This document shows positions 17,041-61,845 of a stretch of 64,000 nucleotides of DNA, one piece after another. Every line of letters begins with the position of its first letter. The first letter of the stretch is position 1. The stretch is from Ashinkailepas kermadecensis (lineage: Eukaryota; Arthropoda; Thecostraca; Neolepadidae). The notes below the pieces were generated by a model that did not search any database, was not told the origin of the DNA, and saw nothing but the letters and a program-made list of their open reading frames with translations. Where the stretch lies: positions 2,501 to 66,500 of the forward strand of contig JAOTOM010005059.1 in assembly GCA_034440615.1 (NCBI GenBank), written 5' to 3'. The translations under genes and the position numbers were made by a program.

Positions 17041-17222
17041 ATAGTGTTCGGCCAGGGGCGAGTCGAGCTGACAGTGCTCAGTCAGGGGCGGTGCGAGCTG
17101 ACAGTGCTCGGCCAGAGGGGAGGCGAGCTCACAGTGTTCGGTTAGGGGCGAGGCGAGCTCATAGTGCTCGGCCAGGAGCGAAGCGAGCTCACAGTGCTCA
17201 GCGAAGGGCGAGGCGAGCTTAG
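17041..17222. repeat. 30-bp minisatellite at the Beclin 1 stop codon
   Basis: About six copies of a 30-bp unit containing GGCGAGCTCACAGTGCTCGG then CCAGGGGCGA. Its right edge includes the TAA stop complement of the Beclin 1 frame (17219-17221), so it occupies the start of the 3' untranslated region. Confidence 0.88.
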
Positions 17223-17357
17223 GTGGGCTCCGGAGATGCCGCAGGGGCCAGCTCGCCCAGTGTCGAGTCGGCGCACACCCACGCGATTCCCCACTTCAGG
17301 TTAGTCAGCATGTACTTGAGCGCCTTGGTCCAATGCTCCTCGGAATTCAGCTGGATC
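17219..17357 (-). CDS. BECN1: Beclin 1 coding exon 9 (terminal)
   Basis: Acceptor GTCCGCAG/GATCC. Encodes [27 protein letters not shown], then a short divergent tail ([18 protein letters not shown]) that is longer than the vertebrate C-terminus. Stop TAA at 17219-17221. Confidence 0.95.
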
Positions 17358-20300
17358 CTGCGGACACAAGTTTCGTCATTTCCTTGAGCACTGAGATAGC
17401 TTTCTGTTGAGATGATCGCTCGCTGGGAGTAGTCCTTGCATAGTTGTACATACAGATATCTGACAGAATGGATGAGCGCAAAAGCAAATAAAACTATGTG
17501 ACCAAAAAGTGAAAGATGGTAAACAATGTACGAGACGTGTTGGAAATGATGAAGGGGAAATGGGAAATAGGAAAATGGTTCATATAAAATGTTTTGCATG
17601 CGTTGAAATATCGCAAGTATCAGTAGGCAGTATACTTTGATACCACCTGCGCTGCTTCTGCAGCATTTTCTGGATATGCACAAGCCAAACATTACAATGT
17701 TTGGCCCCAAATAATATTGCAATGATTTTGTTAATGCATACACTAATTTAACATTCCCTACCCACATTATGACTGATATGAACCATGTCCATGTGGATAC
17801 GGTGAACTGATGATGTCGATAGCAAACATACACTTTAAAGGGGATTGCATTCCATCACTTCGGCTACAGTTGTGTACCCAGGCACCAGAAGTCAGGTAAA
17901 AACCAAGCCCGGCGCATGGCGTAGTACCACACCCGAGAGCGCTATGTAACGCAACGTGAAATGTGCATACAATCACCATGAATGTTACCTGCTCCTTGTA
18001 TACAATAGAAAAGGAACTAAAAAACATGTCCTCGATTCAGAGACGACATAAAAACAAATAGAAAACAATATAACCCGAAAACCCATTCTTCATCACAAGA
18101 GGAATACGAGGAGCGATTTAAAGCGTCGACTGATTATTTGTTTTTCAGGTCGCATCGCCCGCTGGGTTATACCGCATGCACGAGTGATTCACAGCAAAAC
18201 ATACCCACTTGTAAGAGGCCGCGGCCGCACGGCGTTCCTTCGACGCGGGCCAGCGCACCGCTAATACCGCCCAGATGTTCTCACCACGGAAACGGACAAT
18301 AAGCAGTGCCTCAACAGACCAACCATCCGGTGCTCTTACTTGACAGAGTAGGCTGTGCCCGCCTGCGGGTCTTCGATTTTTCCCTTGGACACCTTGTACG
18401 GCAGTCGGAACTTGGCATCACCAGATTCGATTTTCTCCTGGTGACAACACGCATCAAATGCTACCAAATGTTACCATATACGGACACTCCGCTCGTCACA
18501 CCACCTAACGCCACCAGTAGCGGAATCGCCTGAGGCAACGTTGGAGGCACTGCGTTGTTTTGGATGTTTGCCGTCCAGAATATCATATTCTGCGGAAAAT
18601 TACACTTTTTTTTAAAGAAAAGATAAACTGACTTGCCTGAAAATAACCGCAAACTCAGGACTGTTTGATACACATGCTCCAAATTGACCGGAAGGTGCAC
18701 AGGTCCTTGATATCAGAAACAGAGAACAAATCACCCACTCCGACAGAGAATTACTCAAAATAGTCTTCCACAAATCCAGGATTGCATCACATAGATTCAA
18801 CCGTGCGGTCTGAAGTGAAGCACAGCACACGCCACTGGCGCAGCCATGGGTGCCTGGGTCGGTCAACTAACGCCAATCCAGCGGCCGAAAAACACGCGCT
18901 TTTCCCCGTAGTGACTTTCCATCTTTTGACTGCAACATCTCTGACGACGCCAACATTGCGGAGAACCGTTGCTTTTTACGACGCATTCGACTGCTGCGTC
19001 AGATAGCGCGCCAACCTCTCACGCTGATTTGTCGCGAGTGAACTCGGTAATCCTGCCGGTTGCGAGATTCGAACCCATCATTTTACGATCAAGAATCGAA
19101 CGCCATACCGGCCGAGCCACGTCCACCCCGCCACCTTTACGAAATTCCAGGTTATAGCACTGCAATACCTCACAGTTTTGCCAAAACAGCCAAATGCATC
19201 ACCTTGGTGGCGCAGTCTGTTAATACGTCTGTTTCGAGTGCCGAAGGCTCTTTAATCAAGTTTGACACCGTGCGGGCTTATCCGCGGCTGGCTCCCACCC
19301 AGGAGATGGCAGCAACTGCGGAGTATTGACCGTGTCACGTGACTGACACTGACCGACCAGCACCCGCGGTATCGTGTTCACGGACCCGCTCTGCCATCCC
19401 ACCAGTGTTAAAATACTGATTTATCGTTAGGTGAGGGGTGTCGAAACGAGTACAGTGGGATGTCGAAATCGCTATGGAAATAATGCTGTTTAAAATATTT
19501 CGGTCCTTGAAGCCCAGTTTTGGGACAATTGCATAGTACCATATAACTATCCATTTTGCGTGTATTGAGAGGTACCTAATTTGGAGATACCGATATCAAT
19601 GATAGCGATGCAAATACCTATGCTATAAACTGGTATTGTATAACATAGCACATTATAGGCATGAAATTGCACTACGGGAATATCGTTATCACGATCCCGG
19701 ATCCGTTATGATGAGCATAAGCATGATACAAATATACGGTAGTGTTAGAAATGAGGCATGATGACTCCACAAGCACGCACCAAGAAGCACGATGCCGATA
19801 ATTATTTGGGAAGGGTGTCGACTCAGTGTTCGGTAAGTGGTATATTCCACCCTATTTCCGACTAATTTATCACTGCATCACACAGACCGTTCGGTCCGTG
19901 GCGCGCCCAGAGGGCGCGGCCTCGCCTCGTGTCAACGGAAACTTAAGAACAAGCGCGTGAACAACACTGCCTCGCAAGTGTGCCGAAAAAAAATGTAACC
20001 TCTGCCGTAGGTATGTAGTTTGTCTGCGTGCCTGTGCGAATGTGCACCGCAACCTCACGTGGAAGACCAATTTCTTTCTAACGCGAAAGCAATACAATTC
20101 GACCTCGCTAGGCTAATAAGGCGTCGTTACAAATCGAGCGAAGTTGCCTGGAGATGAACATCTGGAAGGATCGTCCAACGCGCCATTCACACGCAGACCA
20201 TTGCCATCCAGTGATCTCGGCATCACAGGATCAGGAAGGGCTCGCGTCCCCAATACACAGTGGTGGCACACACACCTGAAGCTCTCCATCCAGTGAACTC

Positions 20301-23300
20301 GGCACCACAGGATCAGGAAGGGCTCGCGTCCCCAACACACAGTGGTGGCACACACACCTGAAGCTCTCCATCCGGTGAACTGGGCATCACAGGATCAGGA
20401 AGGGCTCGCGTCCCCAACACACAGTGGTGGCACACACACCTGAAGCTCTTGCAGACATTCTAGGAAGGCTACCATTGCGGCGTCGAACTTGGTATTCCAG
20501 ATGAATTTGAAACCGCCCGCGCCGTACAGCGGTAGCTCACGGCCGTCAGCCAACACCTGGCGGTCACTCACGGCCGTCAGCCAATACCTGGCGGTCACTC
20601 ACGGCCGTCAGCCAACACCTGGCGGTCACTCACGGCCGTCAGCCAACACCTGGCGGTCACTCACGGCCGTCAGCCAACACCTGGCGGTCACTCACGGCCG
20701 TCAGCCAACACCTGGCGGTCACTCACGGCCGTCAGCCAATGCCTGGCGGTCACTCACGGCCGTCAGCCAACACCAGGTGGTAGTGGCCATGGCCAGGTCA
20801 CACTGAATCATGTCACGTGACATGGTCAGGCTCCAGGGTAACGGATCACACGGGGCCACGCTCAGAATCGGACAGCTTTCTGTGAAGTTTGATGATGCGT
20901 GCCAGTATCGTATGCTGACAGAACACTATTTGTATTCGAAACAGATTCAATAGCGTCATTTTTCCTGCCGGAAAACGTTTGTGGTGACTCTTGTTTCCAT
21001 CGCGAATATCTACACGTGAGTCTTCATCTGCACTTTAAACTTGCGAGGTTTCGTGTGTGCATTGGCAGCATTCGTGGATTTATATTTCGATGTCATGGAT
21101 TTGAATGGGAAAATTTTGTACCGTCTCATACGGAAGGTTAATGTTCTTCCCCGTTGTGGCAGTACAAACCCTCTTTTGCCCTTTACAGTAGGCTTTGGGC
21201 ATGTTTTACGAAAGATCAATGATATCAAAATGTTCCCAGTTTTACTAATATGCTTGCAGTCATTGTGCAATACCACCATTCAAACATAAGCGAGAGAAAG
21301 GAGATAATAATTTTCCATAGAGCATAATTCAGGATAGCAAAAATCCAGCATCACGCTGTTTTTCGAACCCTGAATGGCAGCCAATTACCACCAGCACCAT
21401 CGGAGTACCTACATCTATTACAATTAACAGGTACCACAATAACAGGTGCATCCAATACAACCAGCCACCATAGCATGTACACATCACACAACCAGCTGCA
21501 TCACATGCACAACTCACACAACCAGCTGCCATCACATGTACATCTCACACAATCAGTTGTTATCGCAGGCAAATCTCACATAACCAGCTGCCATCACATA
21601 TACATATCACACAACCAGCCATCACATGTACATCTCACACAACCAGCCATCACATGTACATCTCACACAACCAGCCGCCATCACAGGTACATCTCACACA
21701 ACCAGCCGCCATCACAGGTACATCTCACACAACCAGCCATCACATGTACATCCCACACAACCAGCCGCCATCACAGGTACATCTCACACAACCAGCCATC
21801 ACATGTACATCTCACACAACCAGCCATCACATGTACATCTCACACAACCAGCCACCATCACAGGTACATCTCACACAACCAGCCGCCATCACAGGTACAT
21901 CTCACACAACCAGCCATCACATGTACATATCACACAACCAGCCGCCATCACATATACATATCACACAACCAGCCATCACATGTACATATCACACAACCAG
22001 CCATCACATGTACATCTCACACAACCAGCCGCCATCACAGGTACATCTCACACAACCAGCCATCACATGTACATCTCACACAACCAGCCGCCATCACAGG
22101 TACATCTCACACAACCAGCCATCACATGTACATCTCACACAACCAGCCATCACATGTACATCTCACACAACCAGCCGCCATCACATGTACATCTCACACA
22201 ACCAGCCGCCATCACAGGTACATCCCACACAACCAGCCGCCATCACAGGTACATCTCACACAACTAGCCGCCATCACAGGTACATCTCACACAACCAGCC
22301 ATCACATGTACATCTCACACAACCAGCCGCCATCACAGGTACGTCTCACACAACCAGCCGCCATCACAGGTACATCTCACACAACCAGCCATCACATGTA
22401 CATCTCACACAACCAGCCGCCATCACAGGTACATCTCACACAACCAGCCGCCATCACATGTACATCTCACACAACCAGCCGCCCAATACGTCTCACACCA
22501 CCGCCGCCATCACAGGTACATCTCACACAACCAGCCGCCATCACAGGTACATCTCACACAACCTGCCGCCATCACAGGTACATCTCACACAACCAGCCAT
22601 CACATATACGTCTCACACAACCAGCCGCCATCACAGGTACATCTCACACAACCAGCCATCACATATACGTCTCACACAACCAGCCGCCATCACAGGTACA
22701 TCTCACACAACCAGCCATCACATATACGTCTCACACAACCAGCCGCCATCACAGGTACATCTCACACAACCTGCCGCCATCACAGGTACATCCCACACAA
22801 CCAGCCGCCATCACATATACGTCTCACACAACCAGCCGCCATCACAGGTACATCCCACACAACCAGCCATCACATGTACATCTCACACAACCAGCCATCA
22901 CATATACGTCTCACACAACCAGCCGCCATCACAGGTACATCTCACACAACCAGCCATCACATATACGTCTCACACAACCAGCCGCCATCACATGTACATA
23001 TCACACAACCAGCCATCACATGTACATATCACACAACCAGCCGCCATCACAGGTACATCTCACACAACCAGCCATCACATGTACATCTCACACAACCAGC
23101 CGCCATCACAGGTACATCTCACACAACCAGCCGCCATCACAGGTACATCTCACACAACCAGCCATCACATGTACATCTCACACAACCAGCCGCCATCACA
23201 GGTACATCTCACACAACCAGCCATCACATGTACATCTCACACAACCAGCCGCCATCACAGGTACATCTCACACAACCAGCCATCACATGTACATCTCACA

Positions 23301-26300
23301 CAACCAGCCACCATCACAGGTACATCTCACACAACCAGCCGCCATCACATATACGTCTCACACAACCAGCCGCCATCACAGGTACATCTCACACAACCAG
23401 CCGCCATCACAGGTACATCTCACACAACCAGCCGCCATCACATGTACATCTCACACAACCTGCCACCATCACAGGTACATCTCACACAACCAGCCATCAC
23501 ATATACGTCTCACACAACCAGCCGCCATCACAGGTACATCTCACACAACCAGCCGCCATCACAGGTACGTCTCACACAACCAGCCATCACATGTACATCT
23601 CACACAACCAGCCATCACATGTACATCTCACACAACCAGCCGCCATCACAGGTACATCTCACACAACCAGCCATCACATGTACATCTCACACAACCAGCC
23701 GTCATCACAGGTACATCTCACACAACCAGCCGCCATCACAGGTACATCTCACACAACCAGCCGCCATCACAGGTACATCTCACACAACCAGCCGTCATCA
23801 CAGGTACATCTCACACAACCAGCCGTCATCACAGGTACATCTCACACAACCAGCCGCCATCACAGGTACATCTCACACAACCAGCCATCACATGTACATC
23901 TCACACAACCAGCCGCCATCACAGGTACATCTCACACAACCAGCCATCACATGTACATCTCACACAACCAGCCACCATCACAGGCACATCTCACACAACC
24001 AGCCGCCATCACAGGTACATCTCACACAACCAGCCGCCATCACAGGTACATCTCACACAACCAGCCGCCATCACAGGTACATCCCACACAACCAGCCGCC
24101 ATCACAGGTACATCTCACACAACCAGCCGCCATCACAGGTACATCCCACACAACCAGCCGCCATCACAGGTACATCTCACACAACCAGCCGCCATCACAG
24201 GTACATCTCACACAACCAGCCGCCATCACAGGTACATCTCACACAACCAGCCATCACATGTACATCTCACACAACCAGCCGCCATCACAGGTACATCTCA
24301 CACAACCAGCCGCCATCACAGGTACATCTCACACAACCAGCCGCCATCACAGGTACATCTCACACAACCAGCCGCCATCACAGGTACATCTCACACAACC
24401 AGCCGCCATCACAGGTACATCTCACACAACCAGCCATCACATGTACATCTCACACAACCAGCCATCACAGGTACATCTCACACAACCTGCCGCCATCACA
24501 GGTACATCTCACACAACCAGCCATCACAGGTACATCTCACACAACCAGCCATCACATGTACATCTCACACAACCAGCCATCACATGTACATCTCACACAA
24601 CCAGCCGCCATCACAGGTACATATCACACAACCAGCCATCACATGTACATATCACACAACCAGCCGTCATCACAGGTACATCTCACACAACCAGCCGCCA
24701 TCACAGGTACATCTCACACAACCAGCCATCACATGTACATATCACACAACCAGCCGCCATCACAGGTACATATCACACAACCAGCCGTCATCACAGGTAC
24801 ATCTCACACAACCAGCCATCACATGTACATATCCACACAACCAGCCGTCATCACAGGTACATCTCACACAACCAGCCATCACATGTACATCTCACACAAC
24901 CAGCCGCCATCACAGGTACATCTCACACAACCAGCCATCACATGTACATATCACACAACCAGCCGTCATCACAGGTACATCTCACACAACCAGCCATCAC
25001 ATGTACATCTCACACAACCAGCCGTCATCACAGGTACATCTCACACAACCAGCCATCACATGTACATCTCACACAACCAGCCGCCATCACAGGTACATCT
25101 CACACAACCAGCCATCACATGTACATCTCACACAACCAGCCGCCATCACAGGTACGTCTCACACAACCAGCCGCCATCACAGGTACGTCTCACCTGGATG
25201 TAGGAATGGCTGCCAAAGGGCACTATCTTGTACTTGGAGAACTGCAGTCCGATCTTGCGAGCGAGAGCCGTCAGCAGGAGGGCCGTCTGTCCCCAGGCGG
25301 CGTTAATCTCCCACCAGTCCACCGGCACACTGGGCAGGCGGCCCAGACTGAAACACACACAACCAATCTCCCACCAGTCCACCGGCACACTGGGCAGGCG
25401 GCCCAGACTGAAACACACACAACCAATCTCCCACCAGTCCACCGGCACACTGGGCAGGCGGCCCTGACTGAGACACACACAACCAATCTCCCACCAGTTC
25501 ACCGGCACACTGGGCAAGCGGCCCGGACCATCACATACCTCGTCCACCACGCCCATCACGCAATTGATGACGGCTACGGGACTTTGGCGTGACAAAACGA
25601 ATAGCCCACACACGGACGTCAGCGACATCAGCAACTGATGACGGCTGCGGGACCTTGGCGTGACAAGACGAGCAATCCACGCAAGGACGTCAGCGTCAGA
25701 CATCATCAGCACCGTCACAAGCACTGCCGTGTGAGTTCAGAGATAGCCGAGTATCATTTCTCCGCACGACTGGTACTCAATGCAATGACAAACAGTCGCC
25801 ACACAAACAACCAAGTGCAGCAACAAGGCATTTCTTCAGACAGGACGCACCTGCAACCAAAAGTCAGTCGTGATTTCGGGGGTCAAGCATGTGAGCCGGG
25901 CGGCCGTTTGGGAGTCGTACCGGAAGTTGTTGATGGTGCCGAAGTGTCCGCTGTGCCAGATGTGGAAGGTGGCGTTGAAGACGTTGGTCTTCTTCAGCTT
26001 CTCTAGCTGTCGGGTTGTGTAGTCGAGGCGATTGGTCAGGCTGGAACACAACACGGTGCTGATGTCAAACTGCACACACACCAACCAACTGCCGACCGAG
26101 CATATTCTAGCCAGGAAACACAACACGGTGCTGATGTCAAACTGCACACACACCAACCAACTGCCGACCGAGCATATTCTAGGGCTTCTAACCACTCCAG
26201 TAATCAGTAGCAACAAACATCCCAGTCTATCATGCCAGTCCAGTGACCTGCGGTAATCCTCGTCAGCGATGATCAGCTGTTTGCGGTATGCGCAGAATTC

Positions 26301-29300
26301 CTTCCAGAAGCACTCCTCCTCCTCCTCTAGGCGCTTCTTCTCGCGCTCCTCCTTCTGTAGCTGCTGCTGCAGCTCCTCCTCCTCCAGCTTCAGCGCGCGC
26401 AGCTCACCGAGCAGCTGTTGCTCATGTCCGGCCAGCTGTGCGGTAAATGCAGCTAGTCATAATTTTCCAGCCATGAGATGGATACCTTGGGCCATAGTGG
26501 ACAGCTGTCGGACGGATACCTCGGGCCATAGTGGACAGCTGTGGGACGGACACCTCGGGCCATAGTGGACAGCTGTGGGACGGACACCTCGGGCCATAGT
26601 GGACAGCTGTGGGACGGATACTTCGGGCCACAGTGGACAGCTGTGGGACGGACACCTCGGGCCATAGTGGACAGCTGTGGGACGGACACCTCGGGCCATA
26701 GTGGACAGCTGTGGGACGGACACCTCGGGCCATAGTGGACAGCTGTCGGACGGACACCTCGGGCCATAGTGGACAGCTGTCGGACGGACACCTCGGGCCA
26801 TAGTGGACAGCTGTGAGACGGACACCTCGGGCCATAGTGGACAGCTGTGGGACGGGACACCTGGGGCCATAGTGGACAGCTGTGGGACGGACACCTCGGG
26901 CCATAGTGGACAGCTGTAGGACGGGACACCTTGGGCCATAGTGGACAGCTGTAGGACGGGACACCTTGGGCCATAGTGGACAGCTGTGGGACGGATACCT
27001 CCGCTCATAGCGGACAGCTGTGGGACGGACACCTCGGGCCATAGTGGACAGCTGTGGGACGGACACCTCGGGCCATAGTGGACAGCTGTGGGACGGACAC
27101 CTCGGGCCATAGTGGACAGCTGTGGGACGGGACACCTCGGGCCATAGTGGACAGCTGTGGGACGGACACCTCGGGCCATAGTGGACAGCTGTGGGACGGG
27201 ACACCTCGGGCCATAGTGGACAGCTGTGGGACGGACACCTCGGGCCATAGTGGACAGCTGTAGGACGGGACACCTTGGGCTATAGTGGACAGCTGTAGGA
27301 CGGGACACCTTGGGCTATAGTGGACAGCTGTAGGACGGGACACCTCGGGCCATAGTGGACAGCTGTCGGACGGACACCTCGGGCCATAGTGGACAGCTGT
27401 GGAACGGGACACCTCGGGCCATAGTGGACAGCTGTGGGACGGATACCTCCGCTCATAGTGGACAGCTGTGAGATGGATACCTTTGGTCATAGTGGACAGC
27501 TGTGGGACGGATACCTCCGCTCATAGTGGACAGCTGTGAGATGGATACCTTTGGTCATAGTGGACAGCTGTGGGACGGATACCTCCGCTCATAGTGGACA
27601 GCTGTGGGACGGGACACATCGGGCCATAGTGTACAGCTGTGGGATGGATGGAAGCAGAAGCAGCACATCCACCGACAGTAACATCCCAAGCACCACACAC
27701 CCACCAGGCCCAACATGTTCAGAATCACACACCCGCCAGGCCCAGCACCATGCGCCCACCGAATCCAGCACGTCCAGCACCACACACCTGGTCCAGTTCG
27801 GAGTCGAGCTGCTGCGAGTCGTCGGCGGCCGGCGGCGGCTCCTTGCGCAGCTGTTGCACAAACTGGCGGTACAGCGTGGCCTCCTGTCGCACGCGAGCCA
27901 GCTCCAGCTCCAGCTCGTCCGTCACCAGGTCGGCACACTCCTCACACATCGGGTGGTCCACGTCCGTGCTGGTCGACAGCATATCCAACAGCTTGGCCGA
28001 CATCTGGCAGACGCACATCAGCCAATTCAGGTGGAAGGTTTCTCAACGTCCAAATCCATTTTTTTCACACATAATCTTAACTGTCAATGTACTACATGTC
28101 TTCATAAACCGGGCGCTCGGGCGCACTCGAATTTGCTACTTCATATGTGAAGGAAGCATCAGCTATCCAATGCGGCTCTGGTCTTCCAAATGTAATTTTA
28201 TATCCCACAAAGTCTACATAATACACGAAATACGACACAAACTGTAAGTCAAATCACCTGTGTGGGGTTGATGTCTAACATCACCTGTGTGGCTGTTCAT
28301 GTAGGGGTGGCGGCTCTGCCGTCGGTGGGGTGTGGGGGCGGTGGGGTGTGGTAGTTTTTGGGTGTCTGGTGTTGGGGTGTGTTGGTGTGGGAGCTGTGCT
28401 GGGTGTGTGAAAAGTAATGCTAACCAAGCCTAAACTCAACTGAAACTGACCGAACTAATTGAGGCTTTATTTTAACTAAGACTGAGCAAATTCACTCCTT
28501 TGCTGATTGTGACCATGTCGGGGGTATGCTGTGCTGTGTTTCCCCGCCACCTCCACCACACATTCCCCAAACCCCAGCCGGCTTGATGTTGTTTGAGCTA
28601 CCGTACCTAACACGAATTTATGTGTGCGAGGTCAAAGTTTTGGGAACGGTAGCTCAAACAACATCAAGCCGGCTGGGGTTTGGGAAATGTGTGGTGGAGG
28701 TGGCGGGGAAACAGAGCACAACACACCCCCGACATGGGCACAATCAGCAAAGGAGTGAATTTGCTCAGTCTTAGTTAAAATAAAGCCTCAATTAGTTCAG
28801 TTAGTTTGAGTTGAGTTTAGGCTTGGTTAGCATTACTTTTCACACACCCAGCACAGCTCCCACACCAACACCCCACACCCACAAACTACCACACCCCACC
28901 GCCCCCACATCCCACCGACGGCAGAGCCGCCACCCCTACACTGGCGCCCAACGTGGGCGCCAGTGTAGGCGTGGCGGCTCGGCCGTCGGTGGGGTGTGGG
29001 GGCGGTGGTTTGGTGGGTGTGGGGTGTTTTGTGTTGGTGTGGGAGCTGTGCTGGGTGTGTGAAAAGCAATGCTAGCCAAGCCTAAACTGAACTGAAACTG
29101 ACTGAACTACTTGAGGGCTTGATCTTAACTCGGACTGAGCTAATTAAGACGGAGTTAAATCTCTCCTTCGTTGTTTGTGCCTATGTCGGTGGTGTGTTGT
29201 GTTGGGTTCCCAAAACTTTGACCTCGCACACATATAAATTCGTGTGAGGGACAGTAACTCAAACAACACCAAGCCGGCTGGGGTTTGGGGAATGTGTGGT

Positions 29301-32300
29301 GGAGGTGGCGGGGAAACACAACACAACACACCACCGACATAGGCACAATCAGCGAAGGAGAGATTTAGCTCCGTCTTAATTAGCCCAGTCCGAGTTAAGA
29401 TCAAGCCCTCAAGTAGTTCAGTCAGTTTCAGTTGAGTTTAGGCTTGGTTAACATTACTTTTCACACACCCAGCACAGCTCCCACACCAATACAAAACACC
29501 CCATACTCACCAAACCACCGCCCCCACACCCCACCGACGGCAGAGCCGCCACCCCTACATTCACCAGCTTTGAAGTCCCACACTTCTATATTGTACACCT
29601 AAGAACACAATATGAGACCTTGGTTTGTTCTTTCGTTGATTTTTCTTACTTCGGTGGTTCTTTTCGTGTGAGCCATTTTCTGCCGCCACCATTATTCTTC
29701 ACATTCAGAATCCTGCACGAGACTTGGAAGTCGCGAGTGTAGTACACAGACTCCAGGGTACGAGACAGCGTACGGCAGCTGAGAAGCTAAACACGATGCG
29801 ATGCAAAGCATGAAGCACAACAAAACGGCTCGTTCCAATGAGCTGTCAAAGAGCCCTTCACGAGGCAGCTGACGACACACTGGGACCATGACTGACCATG
29901 ACCTTGTGTGACACGTGGTCGGTGACTGACCATGACCTTGTGTGACACGTGGTCGGTGACTGACCATGACCTTGTGTGACACGTGGTCGGTGACTGATCA
30001 CGACCTTGTGTGACATGTGGTCAGTGCCGAGTCGGTGACTGACCATGACCTTGTGTGACACGTGGTCGGTGACTGACCACGACCTTGTGTGACATGTGGT
30101 CAGTGCCGAGTCGGTGACTGACCATGACCTTGTGCGACACATGGTCGGTGACTGACCACGGCCTTGTGTGACACATGGTCGGTGACTGACCATGACCTTG
30201 TGTGACACGTGGTCGGTGACTGACCATGACCTTGTGTGACACGTGGTCGGTGACTGACCATGACCTTGTGTGACACGTGGTCGGTGACTGACCATGACCT
30301 TGTGTGACACGTGGTCGGTGACTGACCACGACCTTGTGTGACATGTGGTCAGTGCCGAGTCGGTGACTGACCATGACCTTGTGCGACACATGGTCGGTGA
30401 CTGACCATGACCTTGTGTGACACGTGGTCGGTGACTGACTATGATCTTGTGCAACATGTGGTCGGTGACTGACCATGATCTTGTGTGAACGTGGTCGGTG
30501 ACTGACCACGGCCTTGTGTGACACGTGGTCGGTGACTGACTATGATCTTGTGCAACATGTGGTCGGTGACTGACCATGATCTTGTGTGACACGTGGTCGG
30601 TGACTGACCACGGCCTTGTGACATGTGGTCAGTGACTGATCATGACCTTGTGTGACGCATGGTCGGTGACTGACCACGGCCTTGTGTGACATGTGGTCAG
30701 TGACTGACCATGACCTTGTGTGACACGTGGTCGGTGACTGACCACGACCTTGTGTGACATGTGGTCAGTTCCGAGTCGGTGACTGACCACGACCTTGTGT
30801 GACATGTGGTCGGTGACTGACCATGACCGTGTGTGACACATGGTCGGTGACTGACCATGACCTTGTGTGACACATGGTCGGTGACTGACCACGGCCTTGT
30901 GTGACATGTGGTCAGTGACTGACCATGACCTTGTGTGACACATGGTCGGTGACTGACCATGACCTTGTGTAGCACGTGGTTGGTGACTGGCCATGATCTT
31001 GTGCAACATGTGGTCGGTGACTGACCATGATCTTGTGTAACACGTGGTCGGTAACTGACCACGGCCTTGTGTGACATGTGGTCGGTGACTAACCACGACC
31101 TTGTGTGACACGTGGTCAGTTCCGAGTCGGTGACTGACCATGACCTTGTGTGACATGTGGTCGGTGACTGACCATGATCTTGTGTAACACGTGGTCGGTA
31201 ACTGACCACGGCCTTGTGTGACATGTGGTCAGTTCCGAGTCGGTGACTGACCATGACCTTGTGTGACACGTGGTCGGTGACTGACTATGATCTTGTGCAA
31301 CATGTGGTCGGTGACTGACCATGATCTTGTGTGACACGTGGTCGGTGACTGACCACGACCTTGTGTGACACGTGGTCGGTGACTAACCATGGCCTTGTGT
31401 GACACGTGGTCGGTGACTGACCATGACCTTGTGTGACACGTGGTCGGTGACTGACCATCACCTTGTGTGACACGTGGTCGGTGACTAACCATGACCTTGT
31501 GTGACACGTGGTCGGTGACTGACCATGACCTTGTGTGACACGTGGTCGGTGACTGACCATGACCTTGTGTGACACGTGGTCGGTGACTGACCATGGCCTT
31601 GCGTGACACGTGGTCGGTGACTGACCACGACCTTGTGTGACACGTGGTCGGTGACTGACCACGGCCTTGTGTGACATGTGGTCAGTTCCGAGTCGGTAAC
31701 TGAGCATGACCTTGTGTAACACGTGGTCGGTGACTGACTATGATCTTGTGCAACATGTGGTCGGTGACTGACCATGATCTTGTGCAACATGTGGTCGGTG
31801 ACTGACCACGACCTTGTGTGACACGTGGTCGGTGACTGACCACGGCCTTGTGTGACATGTGGTCAGTTCCGAGTCGGTAACTGACCATGACCTTGTGTAA
31901 CACGTGGTCGGTGACTGACTATGATCTTGTGCAACACGTGGTCGGTGACTGACTTTGACCTTGTGTGACATGTGGTCGGCGCCAGGTCGGTGACTGACCA
32001 TGACCTTGTATGACACGTGGTCGGCGCCGGGTCGGTGACTGACCTTGACCTTGTGTGACAGATGGCCGACTGGCGTGGCGCCGGGGTCGGAGAGCACCGT
32101 GAAGCCGGTGGAGTCGGTGGCCGCCGCCGTCTGGCCGCTGTCTGTCCAGACGGCCGGCGACACGTACTTGTCGAAGCGGGCCGCCGAGTCTGCCAGGTCG
32201 CTGTCGGTGGCCGGGTAGATGGGCACTGCCGACCACACAGCTGGTCACACACCGGCACAGCCAACCGGGCACGCAACATATTCAATAGCTGTGCGACCAG

Positions 32301-47358: not shown

Positions 47359-47519
47359 GGGGGACGAGTTGTGTAGGGGTAAGTTGCCCGTCTCATAATC
47401 GAAAGGTTATGGGTTCGAGTCTCACCTGTCGCTACTCTTCGCCCGCGGCTAATCGGCGTGAGAGATTGGCAACGCTACATGACTCAACGGTCGATGTGTC
47501 GTAAAACCAATAACCGACC
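47359..47519 (+). mobile_element. tRNA-derived SINE, family 1, copy 3
   Basis: GGGGGACGAGTTGTGTAGGG head, GGGTTCGAGTCTCACCTG B-box region, ACGGTCGATGTGTCGTAAAA and AACCAATAACC. Flanked by GATGCAGTTCGGG (47349-47361) and GATGCGGTTTGGG (47520-47532), an imperfect 13-bp duplication. Confidence 0.9.
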
Positions 47520-47532
47520 GATGCGGTTTGGG

Positions 47533-50034: not shown

Positions 50035-50063
50035 TCGTAAAACCAATAACCAACCAACCAAGC
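50035..50063 (+). mobile_element. 29-bp 5'-truncated SINE insertion (family 1 tail)
   Basis: TCGTAAAACCAATAACCAAC plus CAACCAAGC, identical to the 3' end of the family 1 SINE, flanked by a perfect 14-bp duplication GAAGAAACCCAGTG (50021-50034 and 50064-50077). Confidence 0.92.
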
Positions 50064-50077
50064 GAAGAAACCCAGTG

Positions 50078-51539
50078 ACATTCTTCACTGAAGATCCAAG
50101 TGCTTCGGAAATATGCACAAATATACTGTGGTATAATTATTAATTTATATTATGTATATACATATATATTATATAATGTTATATATAATAGAATTACTAA
50201 TATAATTGGTGTGACCAATATTGTTATTAAGCCGGATACGTATCCACTGGAGGGGAAATTTGCCCTCCAGTTGGCATGTTTTTCCAATCCCTGTGACAAT
50301 AATAAGGGAGTTAATTATGCAATGTTAGCGCACGGATTACTTGCATATGAAATGGTCTGATAATGGTATGAAATGAAATGGTCTTTGATAATAAAGTTAT
50401 TATCCCACCTGGAAATTAAGTTCGACATACTGATGTTTTGTGGTGCTCGTGAACTTGAATCTCCTTTCCTGTCCATGGGTGGCGCCACGTGTTTTGGACA
50501 GGGGGAACGGTAAGGTAGGTGTACCAAATTCTGAAAATCGTAAGGGCCAATTCATGGAGGAAATGGGAGGGCAGAAATCGATTTGTAAGCCCGAAATAAT
50601 CATCGGCAAGAGATGAGTCAAGATGCGGGAAGTCCCCACTAAACGTACTGAACCGATATATATGCGGAGCGGGACGTAGCCAAGAAATGTACAGGGAAAG
50701 GGTGAATTTTGCGAAGGGACCCACCCGGATTACCCCATTTTTTAAGGATTTCGACCACTTTATTTCAAAAAGGTTCGGTCTCCCTTTTTTAAACCCACTT
50801 GCTACTTCTTTAGTCCGTATTGGGGTCCGGATCGACTGATGAATGTTACGTGGATGGATGGCGGCGGGTGATCTCCACAACTTGAAACTCTGATTCGGCC
50901 TCGTCGCCATCCATCTTCAATGAGTCGGCAGTGCGGCAGTATGGAGGTGCACTGTCTCTCGTGCTGACGATTACGATACGAGCGATTACCCATACCCGTG
51001 ACCGAATCGATTTGCATGCTTTGCCCAGCGCTGTCGGCTAATTTTCGGAGCACTCGTGATTTGATGAGGTTCGCTTATGCTCAGTCAGGGTCACCTTGCC
51101 CAGAGTGTCACTTTTTTAACGCAATTTAGTAATCACCTGTCCACTTGCTCAAACCACACAAAGGTGTCAATAATCGCATAATTTTGTTTAAAAAATCAAT
51201 GCTATCTGTCCCAAATGGTAACGATCTGTGCGTGCGTTGTATATAAAAGTGTCACTCATTACATTGTCGCACACGTCTCGTTTTCGCTCATGGCCCTTGT
51301 TAAGTTACTTATTCTCACTGCTGGTTGATCGCTCCCTTCACTATGAGACGTAGTAATAGCGAAATGATAGTCGTTTATTCGGGTGGAGCAGCATGTACCT
51401 GCCTCGCTCCGAATCCAACTATATAGTTTGTATTACTAGTCTTCCGTTTGCTTACTTATTTGCCACGCTGGTTGATCCTTCTTCCTATGCGACATAGCTT
51501 ATTGCGTTGCCATAGTTTACTGCTTATTGGCACAGTATT
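50078..51539. other. Intergenic sequence, no gene seen
   Basis: AT-rich stretch around 50140-50220, then mixed sequence. Minus-strand frames near 50416-50910 show no family match. Confidence 0.4.
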
Positions 51540-51733
51540 CTGGAAAAGATAAGTAACTGCTTGTGAGGGCCCGCAAACTGACGTAAAAGTTCGCAGGCAT
51601 TCGTAAGGGCCAGTAAACTTCCGTCAGGGGCGGCAGATGTTGGTTATCGCCCGTCCGTATGCACTCGTAAAGGCCGGCCGTAGACATTCGTAAACGCCCA
51701 TAGACGCTCGTAATAGTCCGTAGGTGTTCGTAG
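51540..51733. repeat. Degenerate CGTAARGGCC-type repeat
   Basis: Repeated short phrases such as CGTAAAAGTTCGCAGGC, CATTCGTAAGGGCC, ACTCGTAAAGGCC and CATTCGTAAACGCC spaced by 25-40 bp. The same text resumes at 52806-52870 beyond an inserted element. Confidence 0.6.
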
Positions 51734-52805: not shown

Positions 52806-52813
52806 GTTCGAAG

Positions 52814-53881: not shown

Positions 53882-53901
53882 ATGGCGGCCTCCAGCGTCA
53901 T

Positions 53902-53932
<31 letters not shown>

Positions 53933-53933
53933 G
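53882..53933 (+). CDS. AMN: Amnionless exon 1 (signal peptide)
   Basis: ATG then a hydrophobic core of nine CTG leucine codons; donor GCGG/GTAAGC, phase 1. The pure (CTG)9 tract is itself a trinucleotide repeat. Confidence 0.85.
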
Positions 53934-56900
53934 GTAAGCCACGCGGACATTGGTGGATGCGCCGGGGCGTTCAAGACCCTCCCTAGGTTCGTTGGACCTT
54001 CCCTGGGTCCTCCCGGGTATACCTCCCGTGCTGAGACTCCAAAGCTCGATGATCTTTCTATCATTATATTATATTCAATATATTATATTCAATCTCGATG
54101 ATCATTCTATGTTGCTTTTTTGCCTGATACAAGGACAATTATAGCTATTGACCCCCCCCCCCTTGAATCTCGAGAGGGCTCCACCTATGCCCGGGTAACT
54201 CCGGTGCAGCGGGGCCACGTTCAACAGAATGCATTTCGTACATCTCCAGACAAGCTGAGGCTGCAATCGGTGTTTCTCGCCATTTGAGGTGCCACCAATT
54301 TCACGGGTTGATGCTCCGGAGTTGAGGCGTCCGGTCAGCTCGTCGGATGAATTGTTATTATGCCTGTTGTGTGCACAAGATTCACCAGAATTGAGCGTCA
54401 ACCATGACGAGAGGTGAACTAGACATCCACCGCTGAATAGTTTTGACAAAACGAGTGAAATGCTTCGGATATTCGTAAAGAAGTTAGCACGTCTTACAAC
54501 ACGATGATATGAAGACAAATAATACGACATTCATTTCATTTCCCAAACATTTTTTTCCATGTCGACAGTCATGGGGTGCCCCGTCCCAGAGCTGTGGTGC
54601 CACGTGACGTGTGACGTTGGCCATCGCTGTCGACAGTCATGGGGTGCCCCTCCCAGAGCTGTGGTGCCACGTGACGTGTGACGTTGGCCATCGCTGTCGA
54701 CAGTCATGGGGTGTCCCGTCCCAGAGCTGTGGTGCCACGTGACGTGTGACGTTGGCCATCGCTGTCGACAGTCATGGGGTGCCCCGTCCCAGAGCTGTGG
54801 TGCCACGTGACGTGTGACGTTGGCCATCGCTGTCGGCAGCGACGCGCATCGCCGTCCGCGGGACAGTTGTCAAGAGCTGGGGTCGAGATCGGAACGTCGA
54901 CACTGGTGCCAACTGGGCGGGCGGCCGGCGGCCCTGTCCCGGACAGGTGGCGCACTTCCCCCAGCATCGCCCGCTGGCGGTGAGTGACCTCACTCGGCAG
55001 TTCCGCAGGTGTTGACACGACACCGACATGCTGCCCAATGGTGTCGTGCACTTCACTCACACGCTGTCCAATGGTGTCGTGCACTTCACTCGCACGCTGC
55101 CCAGTCGTGACGTACACTTCACTCACACGCTGCCCAGTCGTGACGTACACTTCACTCACACGCTGTCCAGTCGTGTCGTACACTTCACTCACACGCTGCC
55201 CTGTCGTGTCGTGCACTTCACTCACACGCTGCCCAGTCGTGTTGTACACTTCACTCACACGCTGCCCAGTCGTGACGTACACTTCACTCACACGCTGCCC
55301 AGTCGTGACGTGCACTTCACTCACACGCTGCCCAGTCGTGTTGTACACTTCACTCACACGCTGCCCGGTCGTGTCGTGCACTTCACTCACACGCTGCCCA
55401 GTCGTGTCGTACACTTCACTCACACGCTGCCCAGTCGTGTCGTGCACTTCACTCACACGCTGCCCAGTCGTGTCGTACACTTCACTCACACGCTGCCCAG
55501 TCGTGTTGTACACTTCCCTCACACGCTGCCCAGTCGTGTCGTACATACACTTCAGCTACTTCGAACCCCGTGCTTCGTTTAATATTCCGTTCGGGAAGTC
55601 ATTGCTCAAAATGTTATTTTCTTTCTCTCGCCCCCTACCCGTCAGATGGTCCGCACCAAATGTGGGCAATTGTATACTTCGGGCAGTGGCGTACCTAGGA
55701 TTTGCCCTAGGGAGGGCGCCAACAGATTTGGAGGACACCTACACCATTTGTGTTTTAAGTCTCCGGATTTCGACCACCTTTGCAATGGTCTCCTTTTTTT
55801 CAAAATAAAATAATTAGTGGTAAACTTAAGTGTCCAGTGAAGGTGACCCAATTTACCACCATAGATTCTCAGTCACCAAACTTCAACCCTACTCCCCCAT
55901 CTTGTTCGAGGGTTTTTCTTTTGGTACCATTGATAAGTCACCTCACACTGCTGAAATTACACCTACGCAAATCACTAAAAAAATGTTCTTTAAAAAAAAT
56001 TAATTCCATGCACTCCAGCTAATTACACCTGGTCGTCAAAACGCCAACGTTCGTGCACGTGTACACTAGCCTTGCGAATTCGGCATATTTTCCACACTTC
56101 GTGCGATTCTTTGACTTCCGCTAAGCCTCCTACGTTTTGCTAATTGCTGTCACATGATATTCGTGTGCCTTATTTGACGTTAGGAATGCTTTGTATGGTG
56201 GTTCGCTTTGAAAATCCGATGAATTCCATTCGCTGATTAGTTTTCTTCTTTCCACATTTTCTGGTGGTTAAGAAATCCGGAGACCCGTTGAGCTTTGATG
56301 CATCTCATTTCATTGGTTAAATATGCTCCCAGATTGGCTGCCGAGCCAAGGTCCTAGCTATGTTCGGAGGTCCTAGCTCTCCTTAATTTTTGGACTCGTT
56401 GGGTTTTTTCTCGTCTGCAGATGTGCTTTAGGGCTCCAGTCAATTTGTGTTAGGGGCCCGGCACATTTTTGAGACGCTGGCTCTTTTTTGGAGGTTTGTG
56501 CTTTTTGTGCATCGACGATGTTTTCGAGGTATCGACGAGTTTTCGAAGACAACGATGTGTTTATTTAGTGCCCGGTCCTTCTTTAGGGCCATGCCACTTT
56601 TTGAGGGCCCAGCCTGCTTTTGAGGCCCCTATGCAGTCTCATGGCCCCGGTGTGCTTTGAGGGTCTCGTTTTTTTTTAGAGAACCCGGCGTGCTTATTTA
56701 GAACTGCAACGCATGGTTTAAGGCTCCGGCGCTTTTTGCGAGGCTCGGTCCGCTTTGGAGGGCCCGGTGAATTTTCTGCCTCCTGGTATGTTCTTAGGAT
56801 CCAGCTGTTTATTTGGGGCTCTTGACGCATATTTGTAGGACCCCAGCACGATTTTGTGGCTCCGATATAATTTATCGGGGTCCCTGCGCGACCTTTCGTG

Positions 56901-59694
56901 CCAAGGCGCTTGATTCCGTGGTGACCCGACGCCAGTTATCTGGTCTCGACAAAATTTTTGGTGACTTCTGAATTTTTATGTCCGAGCCACGGCCTGATTG
57001 TTCGCGCAGCCGGCGCCGTAGTTTTGTGTCCCGCCGCGATTTTTCGAGTTCAGGTACTTTTTTCGGGGCCGTGCATATGTTTTTATGCATCTGGTGGGAT
57101 GTTTGGGGCTCCGGAGATATTTTCCTGGCTCGGACATTTATTTTTCGGAATCTCTCATAATTTTGGAGGGCTTTGGCTTGCTTATTGTCCGATCCGATGC
57201 GATTCTGGGGCCCCGCTGCGCTTATCCAGGGCCATGGACTCCAAATGTTTGGAACCTCGAAATACATTTTTGATGCCCGTGCAGAATTTATGGGTCTACC
57301 GACTTGGATTTTCAGTTCCGAGTGTGATATTTTGGAGGCCCAGCGCGAGTTCGCGGGGCGCGTTGTGCTTAGCTGGGCCCCAACGCAATTTTGGCTGTCC
57401 ACGGCGCAAATATTCGGGACCGGTGCAGGCTTTTTGGTGCCCACTGTATTCATTTAGAGCCCCCTACGCAAATTCTGCGGACCCCGACGCGAATCTATGG
57501 GGCCCGAGAGCAATTTTTGGGAGCATCGACCTGATTCTTGGGAGCCCACCCCTTCAGAAGGGGGTGGGGGGCATTTGCGTCTCGGTACACCACTGTGGCT
57601 ATACTCAATGTTTTTTTTTAGTCGATGGCACCTTTCAGAGTAGAAAGGCCCTTAGGATAATTTTCTGTCGGGTCCTGTTCTGAATTTTCCGGAGCTCGGG
57701 TCAATTCGGTGGAATTTCTTTTATATCTTTGGGGGGGGGTCAAATTATATTTTGTGTTAGTCCCCTGCGATATATTTTCGGGCCCTGGTACGAATCTTCG
57801 GGCTTCCGGTGTTTTTTTTTCGGCGCCCCAACGCGTTTCATTTCCGGGGCCCAACGCGTTTTTGGGTCTTTGACTCAATGGTTGTGACCACAGAGTGACA
57901 TTCCGGAAGGAATGTATTTTGGGAAGCGAACTGCGACTTGTTAGGCTCCGGCTTCGGCTTTTTGGCCTCCAGTGTGATTTTCAACAGCAACGGCTGGACT
58001 TCTTTTTAAAGTCTAAGTGTGATTGTGTGGCCTCGTCGTCATTTGTTGGGATCCCTAGCGCGGGTTTGGTCGCCTCGACACGTTTTTGGAGGTCCAACAC
58101 GTTTCGGGGGCTTTTGGAGCGATTGTTGGGATCCCATAGTCATTTTTCATGTACGGACTGTTCTTTAATTACCCCGGCTTCATATTTTTGGGGGTCCCGA
58201 TGTACTTTTGGGCCCCCGTTCGACCTGTCGAGCCCCTAGCGTGGTCTTCAGTGGGCCTGGCGCGACTTTTTGGTACCCCCGGCTCTGCATGATTTCCAAG
58301 GGCCCCGGCCTGACCTTTTGGGAGCCCCAGCGCAATTTTCAGGAGCCCCGGCCTGATCTTTTGGACGCCCAGCGTGATTTTCAGGGGCCCAGCCCGTCTT
58401 TTTTGGCCCCCATAGTGATTTTCAAGGACCCAGTCGCGACTTTTGTGGGCTCCCAGCGTGACTTTCGGGGACCCAAGTGTGAACTTTCGAGGTCCCCGGC
58501 GTGATTTTCAGGGGTCTCAGTCAGACATTTTGGACATCGTGACATTTTGAACATCGTGCCCAAAACGTTGTGCCTCAGCACGACTTTTTGGGGGTCCAGT
58601 GGTATTTTAAGGAGCCCCGGTCCTACTGTTTGGAGCTCCAGCGTTATTTCTAGTGGCCAGATCGATTTTTTTTAGGTCCCCAATGTGATTTTCAGGGGCC
58701 TTGGTGCGATTTGGGGTCATTTTCAGGGACTCCTGCTCGACTTTTTGTGGCTCTCAATATGATTTGTGTGGCCCTGGTGCGATTACTGGAGGCCTCAGTG
58801 GGATTTTTAGTGAGTCTGCCGCAATTTTTCCGAAGCCCAAAACCTCTCATAGGGGGAGGTGGCAACTGCTCCAAATGCCCCTCCCTCTCGGTACGCCACT
58901 GACTTCGGGAGTGCTTTGGCTTTGGCACCTCCATGTGTGTAAAGCACTGTTAAAGTTAGCACGGGATCCTACGGGTGTGGGCGTCCCTGATTATTGCCAG
59001 TGCCTTCAAGCGCAGCAGCAAAATCGCCCACAAAATCGCCCACAGCGCGTTTGTCCGATTGTCCAGTGGTGGTGCAGTGCGCCTCACCTCGACGTTCCCC
59101 GCTGTTTTGCCACATGTCGGTCGGGAATGCCCCACTCGGCCAGCCTGATATCCCCACCCCCCTCCAGCCGCCTCGACGTGCCCCGCTGTTTTGCCACATG
59201 TCGGCCGGGAATGCCCCACTCGGCTTGACTGATCCCGTCCCTGCCGCCGCGGGTGGGCCGGTCCACATCGATACCGATACCGGACAACTGTGGCGGTGTC
59301 GCCGCGGGCCATGGTTTGTCACGTCAGTGCCGCATCGACCTGTCTGGCTTTTCTGGCTGAACACATCTGGCTGTTCCTCGCCCACCAGGGGCGGATCCAG
59401 GCATTTTCGTGGTGGGTCACATTTCTTCGGGAGAGCGACTTGAACATAAAGTCGTTTTCTGCCAGCCCCGCCTGCTCCGCTGGCGCTGTCCCGGCGCCAG
59501 ACTGACTTAGCTGGCAGCAGCAGAATGGCTATGTGCGGTTTCAGCTGAAACGGAGGGACAGCGCACATCACAGCCTCCGGACGCCTGATGCACTGTGGTT
59601 CGGCTACGAGCTGCCAAGTTTGGCCGACTGACACTGTATAGCAATACCTGGCTACTCAAACTTCCCAGTGCAAGCGTGAGACCGAGATTGCACA

Positions 59695-59727
<33 letters not shown>

Positions 59728-61752
59728 ACGCACACGCACACGCACACGCACACGCACACACATACACACACACATATGTATATATATATATATATTGAGA
59801 TGGAGAGGGAGACTTGCACTGTGGTTCCGCCACGGGTCGCCAGGTTTACGTCCAGCGGAGGCTGTTGTCGCGTCAGCTTGTGCTTCCGACCAACGGAGAG
59901 ATGATGCTGGCTGACGGCGCGTACGTCGCGTTCACCGATTCCGTGTCGCCGGCAGACACCCGCTGCCAACACTCAGGTCAGCGGCACTCAGGTCAGCGGG
60001 ACACAGGTCAGTGGCACTGTTGTCAACGATAATTGGGACCGAGGTGGTCAGAGTGACGCAGGTCGGTGGGACCGAGGTAAGCGTGACCTAGACCAGTGGG
60101 ATCGAGGTAAGAGTGACGCAGGTCAGTGGAACTCGACGTCTGTCGAGGCTGCCAGAGACAGTGGCCCCGGGCCGGTTCCAGAAATTTCCATGGTTGCACA
60201 TGTCTGTAGGGGTGCCACTGCGAAAGAACCTGGAGGGTTCTTCCGCAGGAACCGGAAGGTAAAGAACCCTTTACCTTCCGAGGAGCTCCTCTGGCTGAAA
60301 ATTCGACGGGGTGCACTCGAGCCTTCCCAAAGGGACGCCTTTTCCCGGCTGGAGGTGCGCCACCTTCCATGGAGGCACATGCCCCAGTGCCGCCTTGCAT
60401 CCGCCCATGCAGTGGCCTAATCAAATCGGGAACATCGTCCCTGACGGGCTATGTGCCTGGGTGCTTTATGATCGTGGCAGTTGCCACGCCGTAAGTCAGC
60501 TAGCGATAGCGAGCTGCGTGGCGAGCTATACAGACCGTGACGAATAATTGATTTAGCCTATGTCCTTCGGCCAAGAGCGTTGTAGTTTATGGAAGGGTAT
60601 GCCATGGCTACTTGGAGGCATGGTTGTCGCGACGGATTTTGAATCGAGAGTACAAGAGGACTTTTAGTTTGATTTGAAATGAAATTGCCATGAAACGCCA
60701 CAGGCTTAAATTTCACGAAGTTTTGGGAGCGTCTCCACGTCCACCGAAGTGGTGGCGGCCACGCTTGTTCTGAGTTTTCAACATTCGAAAATGCATTCAC
60801 CAAATGGACGCCCATGCATTATTGTTAGCCTAACGATTTGTCCCGAATGTTCGCTGTTGACTTGGGGAGCGGCGTCGGAGCTAATCAGCACTGCTACGCA
60901 CTTCAAGCTGCTGTTGGACGAGCTGACCGTGCCGCTCGCCTGGTGCGTGACGTGTGCCGCGTGTGTCAGGCGGCGGCACTGTGACGTGTGCCGCGTGTGT
61001 CAGGCGGCGGCACTGTGACGTGTGCCGCGTGTGTCAGGCGGCGGCACTGTGACGTGTGCCGCGTGTGTCAGGCGGCGGCACTGTGACGTGTGCCGCGTGT
61101 GTCAGGTGGCGGCACTGTGACGTGTGCCGCGTGTGTCAGGCGGCGGCACTGTGACGTGTGCCGCGTGTGTCAGGTGGCGGCACTGTGACGTGTGTCGCTG
61201 TGTCAGGTGGCGGCACTGTGACGTGTGCCGCGTGTGTCAGGTGGCGGCACTGTGACGTGTGCCGCGTGTGTCAGGCGGTGGCACTGTGACGTGTGCCGCG
61301 TGTGTCAGGTGGCGGCACTGTGACGTGTGCCGCGTGTGTCAGGCGGCGGCACTGTGACGTGTGCCGCGTGTGTCAGGTGGCGGCACTGTGACGTGTGCCG
61401 CGTGTGTCAGGTGGCGGCACTGTGACGTGTGCCGCGTGTGTCAGGCGGCGGCACTGTGACGTGTGCCGCGTGTGTCAGGCGGCGGCACTGTGACGTGTGC
61501 CGCGTGTGTCAGGCGGCGGCACTGTGACGTGTGCCGCGTGTGTCAGGCGGCGGCACTGTGACGTTCGACGCTGGCGACGGCAGCAGCTGGTTTGACGCCG
61601 GCTCGTGGCGTCAGCGGTTCACTCCGTCTCCGGTGCCGGACGCCGAGCGCGTGCCCTGCCCGTCCGACCGCGTGCTGTTCCCGGACAACATCACGTACCG
61701 CGCACTGGTGGACCGCCCAGTCACGGTGGCGGCGCTCACGCTCGGACCGCAC
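53882..61752 (+). CDS. AMN: Amnionless, N-terminal part (four exons; continues past the window)
   Basis: Amnionless is a type I membrane protein that pairs with cubilin in endocytic uptake. Exons found: 53882-53933 (signal peptide MAASSVM followed by nine Leu and Ala), 54840-54979, 59844-59976, 61547-61752. Phases join cleanly (1, 0, 1, 0), giving 177 codons so far. The second exon has KSWGRDRNVDTGANWAGGRR then PCPGQVAHFP, the first W-x(n)-N-W-x(n)-PCP module. The third has LVLPTNGEMMLADGAYVAFT, matching the LLPLDGELVLASGA segment. The fourth has SSWFDAGSW then DAERVPCPSDRVLFPDN, matching the second module with DAERVPC. The order agrees with vertebrate amnionless. The cysteine-rich part, membrane segment and cytoplasmic tail should lie beyond 64000. 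Intron 2 contains a 3.2-kb transposon. Identification is by recognition, supported by the phase agreement. Confidence 0.9.
54561..54840. repeat. 68-bp repeat ending at the amnionless exon 2 acceptor
   Basis: Four copies (GTCGACAG at 54561, 54629, 54695, 54763; the next position, 54831, is the true acceptor GTCGGCAG). Each unit carries CACGTGACGTGTGACGTTGG. Confidence 0.94.
54840..54979 (+). CDS. AMN: Amnionless exon 2
   Basis: Acceptor GCTGTCGGCAG/CGACG; donor CTGGCG/GTGAGT. It abuts a 68-bp array whose units end with the same CTGTCGRCAG. Confidence 0.88.
55030..55555. repeat. 33-bp minisatellite in amnionless intron 2
   Basis: About 16 copies of TGCCCAGTCGTGTCGTACAC plus TTCACTCACACGC. It starts about 50 bp after the exon 2 donor. 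The unit is a multiple of three, hence long frames on both strands. Confidence 0.95.
55684..58901. mobile_element. Giant minisatellite-bodied hAT-like element, copy B (complete, 3218 bp)
   Basis: Left end CAGTGGCGTACCTAGG; right end reverse complement CAGTGGCGTACCGAGA. Perfect 8-bp target duplication ACTTCGGG at 55676-55683 and 58902-58909. The first ~650 bp are unique; 56340-58860 is a degenerate array of ~30-bp units of the form GGGGCCCCAGCGTGATTTTC, alternating with GACTTTTTGGG-type half-units. No transposase frame in any reading direction. It sits in amnionless intron 2. Confidence 0.92.
58910..59689. repeat. Intron sequence with an ~80-bp duplication
   Basis: CCGCTGTTTTGCCACATGTC near 59098 and again near 59179, each followed by GGGAATGCCCCACTCGGC, marks two copies of an ~80-bp unit. 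An AGGGGCGGATCCAGG segment at 59390 is a MITE-type end without a partner. Confidence 0.65.
59690..59798. repeat. CA / CG / CACGCA / TA microsatellite
   Basis: (CA)n, (CG)n, (CACACG)n and (TA)n blocks in a row, ending about 45 bp before amnionless exon 3. Confidence 0.95.
59844..59976 (+). CDS. AMN: Amnionless exon 3
   Basis: Acceptor GGTCGCCAG/GTTTAC; donor CACTCAG/GTCAGC, phase 1. The donor plus the last seven exon bases is tandemly repeated at 15-bp spacing just downstream. Confidence 0.88.
59968..60014. repeat. 15-bp repeat of the exon 3 donor
   Basis: CACTCAGGTCAGCGG occurs twice, followed by the variant GACACAGGTCAGTGG: the exon end plus donor repeated. Related CAGGTCGGTGGGACC text continues to about 60130. 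Confidence 0.85.
60167..60409. mobile_element. hAT-like MITE (243 bp)
   Basis: Left end CCGGGCCGGTTCCAG; right end reverse complement CATGGGCGGATGCAAG. Perfect 8-bp duplication CAGTGGCC at 60159-60166 and 60410-60417. Same family style as 51734-52805 and 11026-11296. Confidence 0.82.
60418..60945. other. Amnionless intron 3, unassigned part
   Basis: No exon or repeat recognised. Confidence 0.4.
60946..61564. repeat. 34-bp repeat of the amnionless exon 4 acceptor
   Basis: About 18 copies of GTGTGTCAGGCGGCGGCACT plus GTGACGTGTGCCGC. Each holds the acceptor GTGTGTCAG and the first 18 bases of exon 4; only the last copy continues into exon sequence (TTCGACG). Confidence 0.96.
61547..61752 (+). 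CDS. AMN: Amnionless exon 4
   Basis: Acceptor GTGTGTCAG/GCGGCGG; donor CCGCAC/GTGAGT, phase 0. The first 18 bases plus acceptor form the 34-bp array to its left; the donor is duplicated 56 bp downstream. Confidence 0.88.
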
Positions 61753-61845
61753 GTGAGTGGTGGCGCGCGCACGCTGTGAGTGGTGGCGCGCACACGCTCG
61801 GACCGCACGTGAGTGGTGGCGCGCACACGCTGTGAGTGGTGGTGT
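61741..61845. repeat. 56-bp duplication of the exon 4 donor
   Basis: CTCGGACCGCACGTGAGTGG is present at 61741 and again at 61797, so the exon end plus donor is duplicated. Confidence 0.88.

Follow-up and report, generated by a model that had tools for sequence, protein, structure and literature searches.

Minisatellite arrays concentrated at exon-intron borders in genes of the barnacle Ashinkailepas kermadecensis

Minisatellite arrays in genes of A. kermadecensis begin or end at splice borders more often than chance placement in the present introns would produce. When the window and five genes from elsewhere in the same assembly are pooled, 13 of 37 borders pass the position test described below (9/23 and 4/14, respectively). 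The window is the whole stretch of DNA that was analysed, 64,000 nucleotides of contig JAOTOM010005059.1 (positions 2,501 to 66,500, assembly GCA_034440615.1). The copies lie on the intron side of the border, and in most arrays they include the splice site together with exon bases. These arrays are mirage-type minisatellites, here in an arthropod. The best explanation, to which we assign a probability of roughly 0.6, is that a duplication at the junction grows toward the intron while selection preserves the exon-edge copy, and that the births of such arrays are biased toward junctions.

Two intron-containing genes of the window carry the evidence. The Beclin-1 gene (17219..32776, minus strand) was assigned from an intact frame of 440 amino acids and 84% identity to the Beclin of Pollicipes pollicipes; Amphibalanus amphitrite follows with 83%, and these two barnacles are the best relatives. 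Its coding exons 1 to 5 lie at 32776-32668, 32225-32044, 28003-27788, 26435-26248, and 26040-25921, and exons 6 to 9 at 25347-25194, 20556-20440, 18437-18340, and 17357-17219. All eight introns are GT-AG. No relative gap was found within 10 amino acids of the eight junctions against either barnacle Beclin, and the exon edges are therefore correctly placed. The Beclin exons match only the window locus (C4562:2501-66500) in the assembly of 907,663,968 bases and 4,689 contigs, and no Beclin relative turned up when viral contigs were scanned. Amnionless is represented by exons 1 to 4 (53882..61752, plus strand), located at 53882-53933, 54840-54979, 59877-59976, and 61547-61752, which match PF14828 (E 2.4e-21) and PDB 6gje (E 1.9e-12). 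A third gene, TBCC (47957-49033), is apparently intronless, with no introns inside its frame; tandem repeats finder (TRF) reports no array in 34823-51651, the region around it. Open reading frames at 41495-42325 and 13684-14787 appear by eye to be reverse-transcriptase remnants, and a tRNA-Val-like sequence at 16719-16794 may belong to a short interspersed element. Repeats of about 21/42 bp, strongly decayed and of the GGGCCC...GATTTT type, are seen at 7100-8900 and 56400-58900, with one block in amnionless intron 2.

Hand-merged TRF arrays cover 57.8% of the intron bases in Beclin and 31.6% in amnionless. Exon bases are counted here as the stretch over which the adjoining copy matches the edge of the exon. 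In Beclin (all on the minus strand), the exon 2 donor adjoins a 34/45-bp array of about 60 copies (29889..32060) with 17 exon bases, 15 of which match. The exon 6 acceptor has a 60-bp array of four copies with 43 exon bases (25305..25528). From position +1 of the exon 6 donor, a 31-bp array of about 125 copies extends without any exon base (21442..25193). Exon 7 is bordered on both sides, with a 31-bp array of about eight copies at its acceptor (20529..20781; 21 exon bases, 20 matching) and an 82-bp array of three copies at its donor (20204..20449; 10 exon bases). In amnionless (plus strand), the exon 2 acceptor is preceded by a 68-bp array of four copies that ends exactly at the AG and has no exon bases (54560..54839). 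The exon 4 acceptor has a 34-bp array of 18 copies with 18 exon bases (60947..61564), and the exon 4 donor has a 56-bp array of two copies with 21 exon bases, 20 of them matching (61725..61842). At the exon 3 donor, a 15-bp array (59970..60018) includes 7 exon bases and passes at the looser threshold only. In seven of these arrays, the copy adjoining the exon reaches across the border and matches 7 to 43 exon bases; two others abut the border exactly, namely those at the Beclin exon 6 donor and the amnionless exon 2 acceptor.

The sequence-only reading had listed 11 such sites in Beclin 1 and amnionless, and the gene models and TRF arrays bear out nine of them. The other two are weaker than had been claimed. 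The 72-bp duplication near the Beclin exon 5 acceptor (26045..26182, minus strand) stops 4 bp before the exon, and the AG is not copied. The Beclin exon 3 donor scores 26, which is below the best score of other introns (28) and is reached one-sidedly by 8% of random intron positions. A 34-bp array in Beclin intron 3 (26480..27648, minus strand) lies 44 bp from exon 4; it is interior and was excluded from the border arrays. By eye, the exon 4 acceptor resembles a decayed unit of this array; the test was weak (p 0.03), and the site was not counted.

The copies largely retain the splice dinucleotide. GT is present in 56 of 60 copies of the Beclin exon 2 donor array, and AG in 6/7 copies at the Beclin exon 7 acceptor and 17/17 at the amnionless exon 4 acceptor. 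Donors were scored with general splice-site weights. By these weights, the exon 2 donor in use outscores all 60 of its copies, whereas copies equal to or better than the used site occur at the Beclin exon 7 donor (2/2), the amnionless exon 3 donor (2/2), and the amnionless exon 4 donor (1/1). Use of the next copy would lead to stops at the Beclin exon 7 acceptor and donor and at the amnionless exon 4 acceptor. It would remain open and in frame at the Beclin exon 6 acceptor (20 additional residues) and at the first copy of the exon 2 donor (15 additional residues). The conservation of the protein suggests that splicing uses the exon-edge copy.

The position test takes 40 bases around a point and requires a copy on one side only. 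Of the 23 window borders, 9 had copies solely on the intron side; among positions drawn at random from these introns, 154 of 3000 had one-sided copies (5.1%), which makes a 7.6-fold excess at borders (P 1e-6). At a looser threshold the counts were 11/23 borders and 241/3000 random intron positions. The intergenic background of the window was 53/3000 (1.8%). In a shuffled-query test, 11 of 23 borders had p below 0.01, and 10 of these beat every other intron. A second approach used 28 hand-merged intronic TRF arrays with units of at least 12 bp, an array within 5 bp of a border being counted as touching. Ten of the 28 touch a border and 18 touch none. The expected number was 2.6 when whole arrays were placed at random (P 6e-6) and 3.3 when single units were placed in array-collapsed introns (P 1.3e-4).

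The excess recurs in other genes of the assembly. A 300-kb sample (30 stretches of 10 kb), holding 132 merged arrays over 11.6% of its bases, was taken from elsewhere in the assembly. Five genes could be recognised in it, and 4 of their 14 borders pass, against 149 of 3940 random sample positions (3.8%; P 0.0015). The genes are few, and their borders were placed by eye with the help of homology, codon scores, and GT-AG. The acceptor of an FGGY kinase gene (L010) passes with a 61-bp unit that includes 23 exon bases, the sole clear border-spanning array outside the window; its downstream frame appears broken by eye. The acceptor of a galactokinase-like last exon (L017) passes with a 47-bp unit in about 10 copies. 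L010 and L017 had drawn attention through their abutting arrays, which is a caveat on selection. A donor in an ankyrin gene (L025) passes with a 68-bp unit in about 23 copies, from position +3, and the exon iv donor of an HCO3 transporter (L003) passes with a degenerate copy missed by TRF. A cadherin gene (L022) completes the set. Since 4/14 borders pass in these five genes, the border arrays are not a quirk of two genes.

The name given to L017 is our reading of the peptide, and no further galactokinase exons were found in its Pfam-searched frames; that of L025 comes from a Pfam search, in which its frames gave ankyrin and nothing else. Exon finding by codon usage in the 300 kb was abandoned. 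Reversed sequence scored like the real one in a first version and nearly so above 22 in a second, so only open reading frames with recognisable protein content were used. Low-complexity frames (L003 5224, L005, L009, L010 5356), retroelement-like frames (L026, L030), and unassigned frames (L010 7936, L019, L023, L027) were dropped. One stretch, L028 (G000:C2200:30001-40000), has ten arrays in 10 kb and no recognised gene.

How far chance can account for the border arrays depends on the length of the introns when the arrays were seeded. The claim that random placement would rarely hit borders so precisely overstates the case: it holds against the introns as they are now, the comparison with random intron positions having given a clear excess, and it does not hold for introns of 200 bp or shorter, which give the same count. 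In the unit-placement test with all 28 arrays, P rises to 0.10 when introns are limited to 300 bp and to 0.40 at 200 bp, so that an intron length of roughly 200-300 bp or less at seeding would leave the excess non-significant. At the 200-bp limit, 9.0 touching arrays are expected against the 10 observed. Short ancestral introns would therefore allow a purely selective account, in which duplications arose at random, those in exons were lost, and the surviving units overlapped borders by chance. The present introns do hold later insertions and decayed repeats, and the share of exon sequence in the unit fits a uniform distribution (KS P 0.54, n=7), both in line with such an origin. However, the published mean intron lengths of barnacles, as given in their sources, are 706 bp in Balanus improvisus, called an underestimate by its source, and 2,077 bp in Pollicipes. 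This account would also require a far higher birth rate of arrays per base in genes, one-sided ends occurring at only the intergenic and sample frequencies given above (1.8% and 3.8%). We consider it unlikely, although it is the strongest of the competing accounts.

The spread of the exon share has a further consequence. Since it fits a uniform distribution, the ends of the units are not fixed to the junction. Both kinds of boundary are affected, 6 of 18 donors and 7 of 19 acceptors passing in the pooled set (P 1.0). The spread exon share and the equality of donors and acceptors speak against a mechanism that relies on cutting at splice sites.

The edges of coding sequence offer a comparison with borders that are constrained and not spliced. 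Of eight start and stop codons, none reaches the main threshold; for TBCC, the start was probed at a point 6 bp into the frame. The looser threshold is passed by one, the Beclin stop codon, where a 30-bp array of six copies begins although no splice site is present (17043..17219, minus strand; score 28 against the main threshold of 32). The counts of 0/8 coding ends and 13/37 splice borders point to splice junctions and not to coding edges in general, but the difference is not significant with these small numbers (P 0.08). A constraint edge as the sole cause of the arrays receives no support from the start and stop codons.

The array at the Beclin stop codon is also what would be expected if border arrays accumulated through retention. 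An array whose exon-edge unit is under selection could not be lost and would re-seed repeatedly, and border arrays would then build up even if births were unbiased. This idea agrees with the pattern at three acceptors, where the consensus is best matched by copies beside the exon and the far copies are decayed. The polarity is mixed, however, because variability in the array of the Beclin exon 2 donor is highest beside the exon. The failure of all eight coding ends at the main threshold also speaks against retention. Furthermore, the border arrays do not differ in divergence from six other arrays (P 0.47), so a longer survival of border arrays is unsupported. Retention without biased birth thus seems improbable. 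Mirages are characterised by a concerted evolution that does not extend to the array edges; among the barnacle arrays, the edges are diverged in some and not in others.

Two units were searched in the 908-Mb assembly, and no copy above 81% was found elsewhere among the scored matches. The best of these was 78% for the Beclin exon 7 acceptor unit and 81% for the exon 6 donor unit (in C4119). These two arrays therefore grew in place. The match in C4119 belongs to another array (G000:C4119:203078-204656), which is 76-81% like the exon 6 donor unit.

The arrays could, in principle, mark newborn introns made by tandem duplication of exon sequence containing AGGT. The units do hold exon bases along with AG and GT motifs, and models of this kind have been published for lancelet globins (PMC3087553) and potato (PMC4974935), as these sources present them. 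Against this, none of 11 introns has donor and acceptor ends that are clearly copies of one another (lowest p 0.03, none below 0.02), and the arrays on the two sides of Beclin intron 6 show no relationship (p 0.53). Such an origin is highly improbable here.

The reading we prefer is a junction duplication followed by growth into the intron. A short duplication that straddles or abuts the splice junction is the likely start. The array would then extend into the intron through slippage or unequal exchange, and it would be tolerated as long as selection keeps the exon-edge copy working. Births would be raised near junctions in transcribed genes instead of being uniform. Selection accounts for the single copy at the exon edge and for arrays on the intron side, and it does not by itself explain the excess relative to intron interiors. 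Because selection alone predicts no excess at borders and the divergence data give survival no support, a junction-biased birth is favoured. The two processes offered by the sequence-only reading therefore fare differently. For nucleation at junctions, the excess is real and recurs in other genes, and a birth bias appears to be the better reading of it. Selective tolerance explains which copy stays functional, but by itself it offers no reason for borders to exceed intron interiors.

Ordinary intronic minisatellites resemble the barnacle arrays, with units of 15-82 bp, homogenised copies, and variable copy number. Unlike them, the barnacle arrays have ends that cluster at splice junctions, with a 7.6-fold excess relative to positions drawn at random from those introns. 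The founding paper on mirages is said to concern the lancelet Adh locus. As described for amphioxus, mirage minisatellites of Adh, globins, troponin C, and PGBD5 span exon-intron boundaries, both 5' and 3' (PMC3087553, PMC3902484). Their units are 10-160 bp long, and many copies keep the AG or GT (PMC3087553, PMC3902484). The lancelet authors proposed mirages as a possible source of new introns. On these descriptions, the barnacle arrays and the lancelet mirages have in common boundary-spanning repeats, copied exon bases, both kinds of boundary, and retained AG or GT. The barnacle arrays differ in the arthropod host, in their occurrence at 13 of 37 borders, in reaching about 125 copies, and in that some merely abut the border. 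Lancelet mirages are reported to differ in length between alleles, to be somatically unstable, and to leave normal splicing undisturbed, whereas the barnacle arrays are known from the sequence of one assembly. In the potato RdRp gene, a tandem duplication crosses an intron-exon boundary, with splice signals in the copy (PMC4974935). The barnacle arrays also cross boundaries, but they have many copies and give no sign of a new intron.

In the literature searched, such arrays are described only in lancelets, gene by gene. A genome-wide process in barnacles, linked to transcription or splicing, may seed tandem duplications at splice junctions and so turn a sizeable fraction of exon edges into growing arrays of decoy splice sites, and it may have arisen separately in lancelets; we offer this broader possibility tentatively. 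With arrays in an arthropod, seven genes examined in one assembly, and a measured excess, a junction bias of tandem duplication becomes testable. The same holds for a second question, how the spliceosome chooses among dozens of near-identical sites. The border arrays are, in addition, potential raw material for shifted or new introns.
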